A stretch of DNA of 64,000 nucleotides from Azohydromonas caseinilytica. GTDB lineage: Bacteria > Pseudomonadota > Gammaproteobacteria > Burkholderiales > Burkholderiaceae_C. The notes below the pieces were generated by a model. The model was not told the DNA's origin, made no database searches, and saw only the letters and a list, made by a program, of their open reading frames with translations. Position numbers and translations under genes: made by a program. Location of the stretch: NCBI RefSeq assembly GCF_012927045.1, contig NZ_JABBFW010000009.1:1-64000 (forward strand), written 5' to 3'. Below, in pieces: positions 50,456 to 53,805 of the stretch; the stretch's first letter is position 1, and the number at the start of each line of letters is the position of its first letter.

Positions 50456-50632
50456 GCGGTTTCAGGCCTGAGAGCAGCAAAAACGCGGATTTTATGCCGC
50501 CCCCCAAGCCTCCCCTTTTGCGGCCGGTCCAAACCGCGCACGGCGCACGCGCATTTGCCGCCACGCCGGCTTGAGCGAGGTCAATGCACGCGGCGCCCGC
50601 GCTGCCACGCTGGAGCTTGAAGGAGACCCACC

Positions 50633-51211
50633 ATGCGCCCTGCTTCCCTCATCGTCATTCACGAGGAACACCAAGCCCTGGCGGCCATGCTGCGCTCGCT
50701 GTCGCTGCTGCTGGCGCAGTCCCGGCGCGAAGGCCGCATGCCCAACTTCGAGGTGCTGCGCGCGATGCTGTTCTACATCGACGAGTTCCCCGAGCGGCTG
50801 CACCACACCAAGGAAAGCCAGCTGCTGTTCCCGCGCCTGCGCGAGCGCTGTCCGGAGCTCGGTCCCGTGCTCGACGCCTTGGACGCCGACCACGCGCAGG
50901 GCGAGCAGGCCATCCGCCGCCTGGAGCATGCGCTGCTGGCCTTCGAGATGATGGGCGAGCCGCGCCGCGCGGAATTCGAGGCCGCGGCCGAGCGCTACAT
51001 CGACTTCTACCTCTCGCACATGGGCACCGAGGAGAACACGGTGCTGCCCGCGGCCGAGCAGCACCTGCGGCCCGAGGACTGGGCCGAGCTCGACGCCGCC
51101 TTCCTCAGCCACCGCGACCCGCTCACCGGCCACCCGCCCGAAGACGTGTACCAGCCACTGTTCAGTCGCATCCTCAACACCGCCCCGGCGCCGATCGGGC
51201 TGGGCGAGTGA
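50633..51211 (+). CDS. Hemerythrin HHE cation-binding domain protein
   Basis: 192 residues with GAAGGAGA before the ATG. A four-helix HHE domain that binds a di-iron centre for oxygen or redox sensing: HEEHQALAAML, ERLHHTKESQLLFPRL, ADHAQGEQAI and YLSHMGTEENTVLP supply the His/Glu ligands. Residues about 10-150 are the domain, and the tail is short with no output module. An intrinsic terminator follows at 51253. Confidence 0.9.
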   Translation: MRPASLIVIHEEHQALAAMLRSLSLLLAQSRREGRMPNFEVLRAMLFYIDEFPERLHHTKESQLLFPRLRERCPELGPVLDALDADHAQGEQAIRRLEHALLAFEMMGEPRRAEFEAAAERYIDFYLSHMGTEENTVLPAAEQHLRPEDWAELDAAFLSHRDPLTGHPPEDVYQPLFSRILNTAPAPIGLGE

Positions 51212-51252
51212 GGGACTGAATTCCGCTGTCCAGCCCTCCCTTTGCAAGCAAC

Positions 51253-51281
51253 AACGCCGGCTCCATGCCGGCGTTTTCGTT
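51253..51281 (+). terminator. Rho-independent terminator after hemerythrin gene
   Basis: AACGCCGG (51253-51260), loop CTCCATG, CCGGCGTT (51268-51275), followed by TTCGTT. Confidence 0.75.
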
Positions 51282-51307
51282 GGTGGGGCCAAGCCTTCGG
51301 ACAGCCC

Positions 51308-51540
51308 CTTGTGAACAAGCCCCGAAGCACGCACAGCTTGTCCAAAGCCTTGTCCCGCTTGATTTTTTGAGGGTTTCGCCGTTGCTGGAACGGCCTTGTG
51401 GGCAACCCGGCCGCTCACCACAGCTTGTCCCCGTTCTTGTCCCGGGCGCCGCTCTGGCAATCAAGCCAGCACGCCCTCCCGCATTCCGCCCTGTGGGCAA
51501 GCCTTCAACGGGACACAGCTTGTCCAAGCCCTTGTTCCCG
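51308..51540. repeat. Three ordered repeat modules (TGTGnnCAA / CACAGCTTGTCC / TTGTyCC)
   Basis: Three modules start at 51310, 51397 and 51492. In each, TGTGnnCAA is followed exactly 22 bases later by CACAGCTTGTCC (51332, 51419, 51514), and 18 bases after that by TTGTCCC or TTGTTCCC (51350, 51437, 51532). The bases between are not conserved. Modules are 87 and 95 bases apart. TGTGAACAA is one mismatch from the DnaA box TGTGNATAA. Confidence 0.85.
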
Positions 51541-51653
51541 AAGCCGGCGTTTTCAGGCGTTTGGCGCCCTCCCCGCCTTCTGATTCGCTTGTATTTCTTC
51601 TCCAGAGAAGTTCATTTTTAAAAGTGGTCGTGGTGGTAGGCCCCGCCCCGGCC

Positions 51654-51662
51654 TGTGGATAA
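51654..51662 (-). promoter_or_regulatory. Perfect DnaA box
   Basis: TGTGGATAA, the reverse of TTATCCACA, matches the consensus DnaA box exactly. It lies 29 bases right of the AT-rich stretch. Confidence 0.65.
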
Positions 51663-51865
51663 CCGAAGTTTGTTCTTTTGCGGCGCGAACTTGGCCCGCG
51701 CTCAAGGCTGGGGACCGGCCGGCTGTTTGTTCCGGCGCGAACAGATAACAAACATCGGGCGGGGCGCCGGGGCTGTGGACAAGGCCGAGTTGTTGTCGAA
51801 GCTGACCACAGCCTTGTGCACAGGCGCGCCAGAGGGGGTCGAAGGCCGGTCCTACACTGCCGCGC

Positions 51866-52576
51866 ATGACCGTGACCGCCCTGATCCTGGCCGCCGGCCG
51901 CGGCGAGCGCATGCGCCCGCTGAGCGACCGGACCCCCAAGCCGCTGCTGTCCGTACAGGGACGGCGTCTCATCGAATGGCACCTGCAAGCGCTGGCGCGC
52001 GCCGGGGTGCGCCGCGTGGTGATCAACACCGCCTGGCTGGAAGAGCAGTTCGAGCCCGCGCTGGGCGACGGGTCACGCTACGGGCTGGAAATCCTCTATT
52101 CGCACGAGGGCCGCGACCATGGCGGCGCGCTGGAAACCGCCGGCGGCATGAAGAAGGCGCTGCCGCTGCTGAGTGACACGTTCTGGGTGGTGTCGGGCGA
52201 CGTGTTCGTGCCGGAATTCGCCTTTGCCCACAAGGATTTATTGGATTTCCAGGCCACCGGGACGCTGGCCCGGCTGTGGCTGACCGACAACCCGCCGCAC
52301 CACCCGCGGGGCGATTTCGGCATCCGCGACGGGCTGGCCGTGCGCGAGGCCGAGGAGCGTTTCACCTGGACCAGCCTGGGCCTGTTCCGCCGCGCCTTCG
52401 TCGAGGAGCTGATGGCGGATCTGCCGCACGGTGCCAAGGCGCCGCTGCGGCCCTATCTGGATGCCGCCATCGGGCGCGGTGCGCTGGGCGCCCAGCGCTG
52501 GTGCGGCGGCTGGACCGACGTGGGCACGCCCGAGCGGCTGGCGGCCCTGGATGCACAAGGCAGGCAAACCGCATGA
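51866..52576 (+). CDS. murU: N-acetylmuramate alpha-1-phosphate uridylyltransferase-like nucleotidyltransferase
   Basis: 236 residues. Probably makes UDP-N-acetylmuramic acid in the cell-wall recycling pathway. Nucleotidyltransferase start LILAAGRGERMRPLSDRTPKPLL, then VINTAWLEEQFE, a metal-binding GDVF and FTWTSLGLFRRAF near residue 165, and WCGGWTDVGTPERL at the end. Usually amgK sits next to it but not here. The stop overlaps the next start (ATGA). Confidence 0.85.
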   Translation: MTVTALILAAGRGERMRPLSDRTPKPLLSVQGRRLIEWHLQALARAGVRRVVINTAWLEEQFEPALGDGSRYGLEILYSHEGRDHGGALETAGGMKKALPLLSDTFWVVSGDVFVPEFAFAHKDLLDFQATGTLARLWLTDNPPHHPRGDFGIRDGLAVREAEERFTWTSLGLFRRAFVEELMADLPHGAKAPLRPYLDAAIGRGALGAQRWCGGWTDVGTPERLAALDAQGRQTA

Positions 52577-53805
52577 ACACCTCTATCGACGCTTCGCAAG
52601 CTTCTTCCGTCGCCGCCGCGCCGGCGGCGTCGCGCATCGCCGTGGTCGGTGCTGGCCCGGTGGGCTTGGCCCTGGGGCTGCTGGCCGCGCGCCACCTGCC
52701 GCAGGCGCAAATCTCTCTGTTCGATGCGCGCGCCCTGGACAAGGACATCGCCGCCGACCCGCGCGTGCTGGCACTGTCGCTGGGCAGCGTGCAGCTGCTG
52801 CAGCAGCTGCGCGCCTGGGACGGCGGGCGCGCGCAGCCGATCCAGGAGGTGCTGGTGTCGCAGCAGCCGCCGGGCACGCTGCCGCTGGGCGGCGAGCCGC
52901 AGGTGCGCATCCGCGCGGCTGAGGAAGCGGTGCCGATGCTCGGCGCCGTGCAGTCCTACGGTGCGGTGGTGGCGCCGTTGCAGCGCGCCTGGCTGGAGCA
53001 GGCGGCCCAGCAGCCGCAGCGCTTGTTCACCCGCTTCGGCACGCCGGTGGCCTCGCTGAAGCCGCTGCCGCAGGGCGTGGAGGTCGATGCCGGCATCGCC
53101 GAGAGCTTTGACTTGGCCGTGGTGGCCGAGGGCGGCGTGTTTGCCGAGCAGGCGCGCAAGTCCATCGCGCGCGACTACGCGCAGACGGCCTGGATCGGTA
53201 CCGTGACGCTGGAAGGCGGCAGCCCCGGGCTGGCCATCGAGCGCTTCACGCGCCAGGGCCCGGCCGCGCTGCTGCCGCTGCCGCCCGGGCCCGACGGCCT
53301 GCAGCGCGCCGCGCTGGTGTGGTGCGTGGACAGCCGCGACGACCCGGTGAAGGACCTCAATGACGCGCAGCGCCTGGCGGTGCTGTCGTCCATCTTCCCG
53401 CCCGAGGCCGGCCGGCTGGTGGCGGTGACGCCGATGAAGCACTTCGCGCTCGGCCTCAATGCCGAGCGCACCCTGGCGCGCGAGCGCACCGTGCGCATCG
53501 GCAACGCGGCGCAGACGCTGCACCCGGTGGCGGGCCAGGGGCTGAATCTGGGTTTGCGCGACGCCTTCACGCTGGTGCAGGCCCTGCGCCGCGGCAATTC
53601 GGTGGGTGCCGCGCTGCGCCGCGTGGAATTCCAGCGCGCCCCGGACCGCTGGAGCGTGATCGCCGCCACCGATTTCCTGGCCCGCAGTTTCACCTGGCAA
53701 TTGCCGGGATTGCCGACGGCGCGGGCGCTGGGTTTGGCCTTATTGCAGGCGGTGCCGCCGCTGAGGTCGGCACTGGCGCGGCAGATGATGTTTGGGCGGC
53801 GGTGA
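52573..53805 (+). CDS. UbiH/Coq6-family FAD-dependent hydroxylase
   Basis: 410 residues from ATG at 52573. Flavin monooxygenase that probably acts in ubiquinone ring hydroxylation. FAD site RIAVVGAGPVGLALGLLA near residue 22, DPRVLALSLGSVQLL, and the C-terminal GNAAQTLHPVAGQGLNLGLRD near residue 315, typical of UbiH/UbiI/UbiF. The central DG motif region reads LAVVAEGG (the usual GADG replaced by AEGG). The position hydroxylated cannot be told. Coupled to murU. Confidence 0.88.
   Translation: MNTSIDASQASSVAAAPAASRIAVVGAGPVGLALGLLAARHLPQAQISLFDARALDKDIAADPRVLALSLGSVQLLQQLRAWDGGRAQPIQEVLVSQQPPGTLPLGGEPQVRIRAAEEAVPMLGAVQSYGAVVAPLQRAWLEQAAQQPQRLFTRFGTPVASLKPLPQGVEVDAGIAESFDLAVVAEGGVFAEQARKSIARDYAQTAWIGTVTLEGGSPGLAIERFTRQGPAALLPLPPGPDGLQRAALVWCVDSRDDPVKDLNDAQRLAVLSSIFPPEAGRLVAVTPMKHFALGLNAERTLARERTVRIGNAAQTLHPVAGQGLNLGLRDAFTLVQALRRGNSVGAALRRVEFQRAPDRWSVIAATDFLARSFTWQLPGLPTARALGLALLQAVPPLRSALARQMMFGRR

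Follow-up and report, generated by a model that had tools for sequence, protein, structure and literature searches.

An oriC-homologous module with an upstream DnaA-box array beside murU in Azohydromonas

Introduction

Bacteria are, to our knowledge, thought to keep one replication start site per chromosome. This makes a short non-coding region of Azohydromonas caseinilytica puzzling: what is DNA with DnaA boxes and the outline of a replication origin doing beside murU? The region, 654 bp long (51212–51865), belongs to a stretch of 64,000 nucleotides, which in its whole length is called the window here, and lies between a hemerythrin-like gene, which ends at 51211, and a murU-like gene, which starts at 51866 (both names were read from translations). 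An initial annotation, made from the letters alone, described it as a protein-binding array and compared it with a replication origin, with a DnaA titration site such as datA or DARS, and with the relic of an integrated replicon. The first part of the region contains the following features:

51253–51275, + strand: terminator-like inverted repeat 3' of the hemerythrin-like gene, with perfect arms AACGCCGGC/GCCGGCGTT
51307–51356, + strand: array module 1, a DnaA-box triad, seen in no other genome
51394–51443, + strand: array module 2; A. australica, A. aeria and A. lata have it in register
51489–51538, + strand: array module 3; these relatives have it in register too, A. aeria showing deviations

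Each module spans 50 bp and consists of TGTGnnCAA (at 51310, 51397 and 51492), followed 22 bases later by CACAGCTTGTCC and, after 18 more bases, by TTGTCCC or TTGTTCCC. In its strict form the pattern occurs three times in the window, always inside the 654 bp region, and in 1000 dinucleotide-preserving shuffles of the region not even one module arose, a zero that is descriptive, the pattern having been defined post hoc from the same data. DnaA boxes with at most one mismatch to TTATCCACA/TTGTCCACA number seven, as against a mean of 0.145 and a maximum of two in 1000 shuffles. With none of the 1000 shuffles reaching the module or box counts, a chance origin of these features was rejected. The fixed spacing that the initial annotation had described thus stands, and the other features that it listed, namely an AT-rich palindrome, a consensus DnaA box at 51654 and variants at 51774 and 51814, are all present. 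A CRISPR or RNA element was also considered and rejected; an Rfam scan of 50600–52600 gave two matches, both sub-threshold.

A family-wide origin module

The part of the region nearest to murU resembles a module found throughout the family, as defined by GTDB, to which Azohydromonas belongs. A profile built from copies 1 (this element) and 2 (see below), R1, matches 159 of 200 family genomes, and a second profile, R2, made of 26 elements from other genera only, matches 189 of the 200, including 174 of the 178 of good quality. Among 60 genomes drawn from the order, two of which are family members, 12 match R2, and none of the ten from other families exceeds 54.5 bits. In the A. caseinilytica genome the three best matches reach 106.4 (copy 1), 105.2 (copy 3) and 97.2 bits (copy 2), the next one 17.4. 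Azohydromonas copies in general score 97–119 bits, copy 3 of G002, one of the Azohydromonas genomes named below, 120.8, and two elements of a relative that had been left out of the profile (G098) 111.5 and 110.0.

Position supports the reading of this module as an origin. It lies between dnaA and dnaN (our own label for the gene) in four of 17 inspected genomes (G199, G185, G117 and G082), and 39–260 kb from dnaA in ten genomes with both positions known (G006, G007, G010, G098, G101, G146, G175, G178, G188 and G215). Cumulative GC-skew minima were taken within contiguous stretches of 189–230 kb in four genomes, and in three of them an element lies at most 6 kb from the minimum and far from dnaA: G098 (minimum 389.3k; elements 394.6k and 398.8k; dnaA 134.9k), G175 (101.1k; 98.65k; 0.6k) and G007 (39.9k; 40.07k, 49.3k and 69.3k; 0.35k). 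At spaced sampling points the skew is mostly negative on one arm and positive on the other; single samples depart from this rule, e.g., 3300k in G098, and the curve of G007 drops again past 95k. G215 does not confirm the element as origin, its minimum at 1470.5k coinciding neither with the elements (1376.5k and 1377.1k) nor with dnaA (1431.8k). In this genome the minimum and the KOPS breakpoint (1485k) are both about 90–110 kb from the two modules (L082, L138–L146), which possibly reflects a recently moved origin or an inversion. In G007, G010, G098, G101, G175 and G215, parS sites with at most one mismatch are 14–38 kb away from the closest element and 71–285 kb from dnaA, so that the element is the nearer one in all six of these non-Azohydromonas genomes.

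In the alignment of the family, AT-rich DNA is followed by TAG-type triplets, a GC-rich stretch, a DnaA box and more boxes at fixed spacing. The core of copy 1 contains the same parts:

51589–51830, + strand: oriC-homologous core, 106.4 bits and E 2.7e-30 with R2, a profile containing no Azohydromonas sequence
51610–51624, + strand: AT-rich putative unwinding element with the TTTTAAAA palindrome (51616–51623), conserved in four species
51625–51639, + strand: five DnaA-trio-like triplets, TGG TCG TGG TGG TAG, degenerate relative to TAG
51640–51652, + strand: GC-rich stretch from the triplets to the first box
51654–51662, − strand: consensus DnaA box TTATCCACA
51681–51693, + strand: position where copies 2 and 3 keep an IHF-like site, at a distance of 27 bases from the first box; lost here, with mismatches at five of nine specified positions, as counted by eye
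51774–51782, − strand: DnaA box TTGTCCACA; like its counterpart in copy 2, it lies 120 bases from the first box
51814–51822, + strand: DnaA-box variant TTGTGCACA

Homology of this core to the oriC module of the family is well supported by the profile matches, and the comparison with a replication origin made in the initial annotation proved right. As far as its letters tell, the core has the general oriC layout of an unwinding region, trio-like triplets, a GC-rich stretch and DnaA boxes, so the further remark that no element of this form had been described fails for the core. The distance of 120 bases between the first box, TGTGGATAA, and the second, TGTGGACAA, is the same in both copies on the contig of the window.

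Three copies in Azohydromonas

DNA searches of the A. caseinilytica genome found three full copies, on two contigs (C89, which holds the window, and C30):

Copy 1, C89 at 51.6k, in the window: beside murU
Copy 2, C89 at 149.7k: between a pilin-like gene and an O-antigen-ligase-like gene (names read from sequence)
Copy 3, C30 at 31.5k: directly behind an mnmE-like gene (our own label), about 5 kb from dnaA

The same three copies are present in three further genomes, G001, G002 and G003, taken as A. australica, A. aeria and A. lata. In all four genomes, 98–102 kb separate copies 1 and 2 (98 kb in A. caseinilytica), and copy 3 is on another contig. The end of C30 beyond dnaA has a GC content of 0.56, compared with about 0.70 over most of the contig (L034, 4001–7048), and is perhaps a mobile element.

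A search with the MurU protein yielded 14 loci. In three of them, from A. australica, A. aeria and A. lata, the element adjoins murU. The stretches covered for the other 11, all from outside these species, do not contain it; in 'A.' sediminis (L006) and at one further locus (L007) just a short gap separates the hemerythrin-like and murU-like genes. The initial annotation had held that absence or scrambling in close relatives would reduce the array to a local repeat. This condition fails within the genus, where the element is conserved in four species; outside these species it is absent from murU, in 11 of the 14 loci.

In a tree of the elements, the branch uniting the Azohydromonas copies has a support of 0.916 and that joining copies 2 and 3 one of 0.996. 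Grouping by place is supported with 0.999 for copy 1 and 0.977 for copy 2, and with just 0.10 for copy 3. Since elements of about 250 bases give low resolution, only the branch uniting Azohydromonas and the copy-wise branches were used. The copies cluster by place and not by species, so its duplication seems to have taken place in this lineage and to predate the split of the four species.

Conservation differs among the copies. Identity among the four genomes is 80–82% for the core of copy 1, 71–78% for copy 2 and 62–74% for copy 3, the last from three genomes only. When the core of copy 1 was compared with the four-fold sites of murU (70–79%), it was the higher in all six species pairs, by 3–10 points, which speaks for selection, and its main DnaA boxes are intact in the four species.

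The array is less conserved in sequence, with 54–62% identity among the four genomes. Its spacing is kept, however, as the initial annotation would lead one to expect from its fixed intervals and drifting spacers: A. australica, A. aeria and A. lata have two modules each in register, the second of A. aeria deviating. The spaced TGTG...CA triad pattern was seen upstream of five of 32 elements scanned, four of them copies 1 and one a copy 2, and among the three Azohydromonas copies an array of two or three modules is found only at copy 1. The triads lie on the opposite side of the putative unwinding region from the boxes of the core. Against the right end of R2 the modules score low, with 7–8 bits (E 0.5–1.3) in A. 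caseinilytica, at most 17 bits in A. aeria and at most 13 bits in A. australica; hence the array is not claimed as a proven duplication of that end.

Copy 1 differs from the other copies in a further respect. A match to the IHF consensus stands at an offset of 27 bases beyond the first box of the module. Ten of 26 family elements have a best match with one mismatch or none, compared with 5 of 1300 shuffled stretches; 18 elements have at most two mismatches, 17 of these at the 27-base offset, and eight have three. All seven copies 2 and 3 keep the site at this offset (0–1 mismatch), whereas none of the four copies 1 has a match there, their best match over 45 positions scanned having 3–5 mismatches. 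From this difference it appears that copy 1 has diverged functionally from copies 2 and 3. Loss alone does not mean inactivity, since an element of G098 also lacks the site.

The triplets concern the genus as a whole. One of five is TAG in copy 1, compared with two in G199, three in G175 and G185 and four in G098 and G007. Ten readable Azohydromonas copies from the four species have 0–2 TAG of five. The lower number relative to the five elements from other genera (2–4) hints at a drift in single-strand recognition in Azohydromonas.

Which copy is the main origin

The three copies raise the question of which one serves as the main origin, and KOPS polarity, GC skew and parS were used to address it. 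The motif taken for KOPS was GGGNAGGG. In samples from known arms, it occurs forward:reverse 38:10 and 2:19 in G007 and 33:3 and 9:50 in G215, each time as the most biased of its own letter permutations. On the contig of the window there are two forward and 29 reverse motifs, without a switch in polarity at either of its two copies; right of copy 1 the count is 0 forward and 23 reverse (rank 1 among permutations). The corresponding contig of A. australica (C13) has 7:23, with rank 2 to the right of copy 1. Around copy 3 of A. australica the motifs point mostly away from the copy. The forward:reverse counts are 7:19 towards dnaA, where KOPS ranks only 16th among 43 control permutations, and 3:0 on the opposite side. 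In G003 four of six point away on each side, and KOPS on C30 of A. caseinilytica is uninformative. The KOPS breakpoint was rejected as a means of locating an origin, being too noisy to do so to within 40 kb; the distance between the best breakpoint and the minimum of the skew is about 42 kb in G098, 37 kb in G175 and 31 kb in G007.

At copy 1 the GC skew changes sign, from −0.018 to +0.004 in A. caseinilytica and from −0.020 to +0.006 in A. australica, which would fit copy 1 as an origin, and at the sole copy 3 tested, that of A. australica, no turn was found. Estimates corrected for gene strand agree with the turn at copy 1 (1.4 and 2.4 standard errors), and with all three codon positions the differences are weak. 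The corrected skew at four-fold sites was dropped because its own control failed, the arms of G007 not being clearly different.

In A. australica parS is on the contig of copy 3, 68 kb away and slightly nearer to dnaA, and a different contig carries copies 1 and 2. In A. caseinilytica parS is on a contig (C1) with none of the three copies. Homologues of genes at 113–130k of C89, the contig of the window, lie in the vicinity of dnaA in G007, G215 and G098. Given the unswitched KOPS at copy 1, and the position of copy 3, some 5 kb away from dnaA and on the parS contig of A. australica, copy 3 appears to be the better candidate for the main origin and copy 1 would not be it, a conclusion that carries real doubt.

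What copy 1 may do

Copy 1 is homologous to oriC and is one of three full copies, which form one clade that clusters by place; its core is conserved, and an array of DnaA-box triads lies upstream. The explanation that accounts best for these observations is an ectopic oriC paralogue, its place conserved across four Azohydromonas genomes, that would serve as a DnaA-binding regulatory or reserve site and not as the main origin; the chances that this is so are about even. Judging from the strong boxes, the array and the conservation of the core, the most likely event is assembly of DnaA, which would bind the boxes and the array and build an orisome-like complex. Routine firing is made less likely by the unswitched KOPS and the lost IHF-like site, and copy 1 may mainly take up or process DnaA, like datA or DARS in effect, or possibly act as a reserve origin. 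The conservation of copy 1, which exceeds that of copies 2 and 3, counts against this explanation in part, for a mere sink does not predict it.

The same conservation, together with the full oriC scores of all three copies and the sign change of GC skew at copy 1 in two genomes, would suit an active secondary origin, on a chromosome that, if only in certain conditions, initiates replication at more than one oriC; multiple matches are common in the family as well (62 of 189 positive genomes have two or three by hand count, some perhaps partial). KOPS polarity, constant across copies 1 and 2, argues against it, and it is a serious possibility that we consider improbable on balance. A related reading has three functional native oriC copies, of which the one at murU, having its own DnaA-box array and no IHF-like site, would serve either for a second initiation or as a switch, and fire unlike the main origin. 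It would make this a natural multi-origin chromosome, and is rather unlikely. It is unlikely that copy 1 is itself the main origin of Azohydromonas and copy 3 a diverging leftover. The identity values of copies 1 and 3 and the skew, which turns at the former and not at the latter, agree with this, as do the ten family genomes with a module distant from dnaA, but the 0:23 KOPS count to the right of copy 1, the closeness of copy 3 to dnaA and its sharing of the parS contig in A. australica, and the 11 of 14 fetched murU loci, outside the three relatives, that have no module do not.

The core of copy 1 ends 35 bases ahead of the murU start codon, a position that would suit a DnaA-responsive control region for this gene. 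The conserved features match oriC, unwinding region included, and copies 2 and 3 adjoin other genes, which makes such a role very unlikely. Scarcely any weight falls on a decaying duplicate without function: degenerate triplets and the loss of the IHF-like site would be expected of it, but the core is more conserved than the four-fold sites of murU and than the array, the main boxes are intact in four species, and copies 2 and 3 have degenerate triplets too. The integrated replicon relic named in the initial annotation is not supported, as blastn at E 1e-5 found no match in 72,556 plasmid records, the core is conserved and paralogues are present in the same genome.

Relation to known systems

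Copy 1 resembles the basal unwinding system of oriC, in which, as far as PMC6669920 and PMC10721633 describe it, DnaA boxes adjoin DnaA-trios; an AT-rich stretch, triplets, a GC-rich stretch, a first box and boxes at fixed spacing are common to both. Cytosine can stand in for the central adenine of a DnaA-trio, according to the relevant part of PMC10721633. Copy 1 is unlike that system in being ectopic, in having two further copies, the upstream triad array and degenerate triplets, and in lacking an IHF-like site at the conserved place.

The core of DARS1 and DARS2 consists of three DnaA boxes in a fixed arrangement. With these sites and datA of Escherichia coli copy 1 shares a cluster of DnaA boxes outside oriC, and a function of this type is possible. 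The minimal datA, in the account that PMC10380432 gives of it, comprises one IHF site and four DnaA boxes, and copy 1, an oriC paralogue, has no IHF-like site at the conserved position in any of the four species; the identification with datA was rejected on this ground, and of the titration-site comparison in the initial annotation only the possible function is kept.

More than one oriC-like region per chromosome is on record in DoriC, whose putative double origins include Ralstonia pickettii 12D with two (PMC4403523). Those were called by box counts, skew and neighbouring genes, as the passages on DoriC in that article have it, whereas Azohydromonas has three homologous copies in four species. 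The same passages state that, as of 2015, there was no evidence of two functional origins ever being used on one bacterial chromosome (PMC4403523). Among the matches listed in a literature search whose scope excluded most subscription journals, no title dealt with oriC of Azohydromonas or with homologous extra oriC copies in the family; a paper on the genome of Cupriavidus metallidurans (PMC2864759) contains the terms oriC and DnaA boxes. A genus with three homologous, conserved copies makes firing, silencing or DnaA regulation by the extra ones directly testable. The family, moreover, seems to move and double its origin often and, if so, offers natural experiments on what oriC requires.

Bipartite origins are described for Bacillus subtilis and Helicobacter pylori in the part of PMC4403523 that concerns them, and many inspected relatives likewise have two DnaA-box regions, as two modules 0.3 kb (G199) to 6 kb (G061) apart. 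Copies 1 and 2 of Azohydromonas differ in their distance of 98–102 kb, and copy 3 in being on another contig. In seven of 17 genomes, two modules about 2–6 kb apart flank a conserved gene pair (L081, L084, L085, L090, L091, L096 and L097), which at L081 consists of a PTPS (queD-like) and a radical SAM (queE-like, just under the Pfam cut-off) gene; the modules around this pair are a bipartite origin away from dnaA. Another recurring module site has its own set of shared genes (L078, L082, L087 and L092), which at L082 match RdgC, PagL, LTXXQ and the nucleoside-gate family. G185 has two modules in opposite orientation within the gap between dnaA and dnaN (L086, 9165–9712).
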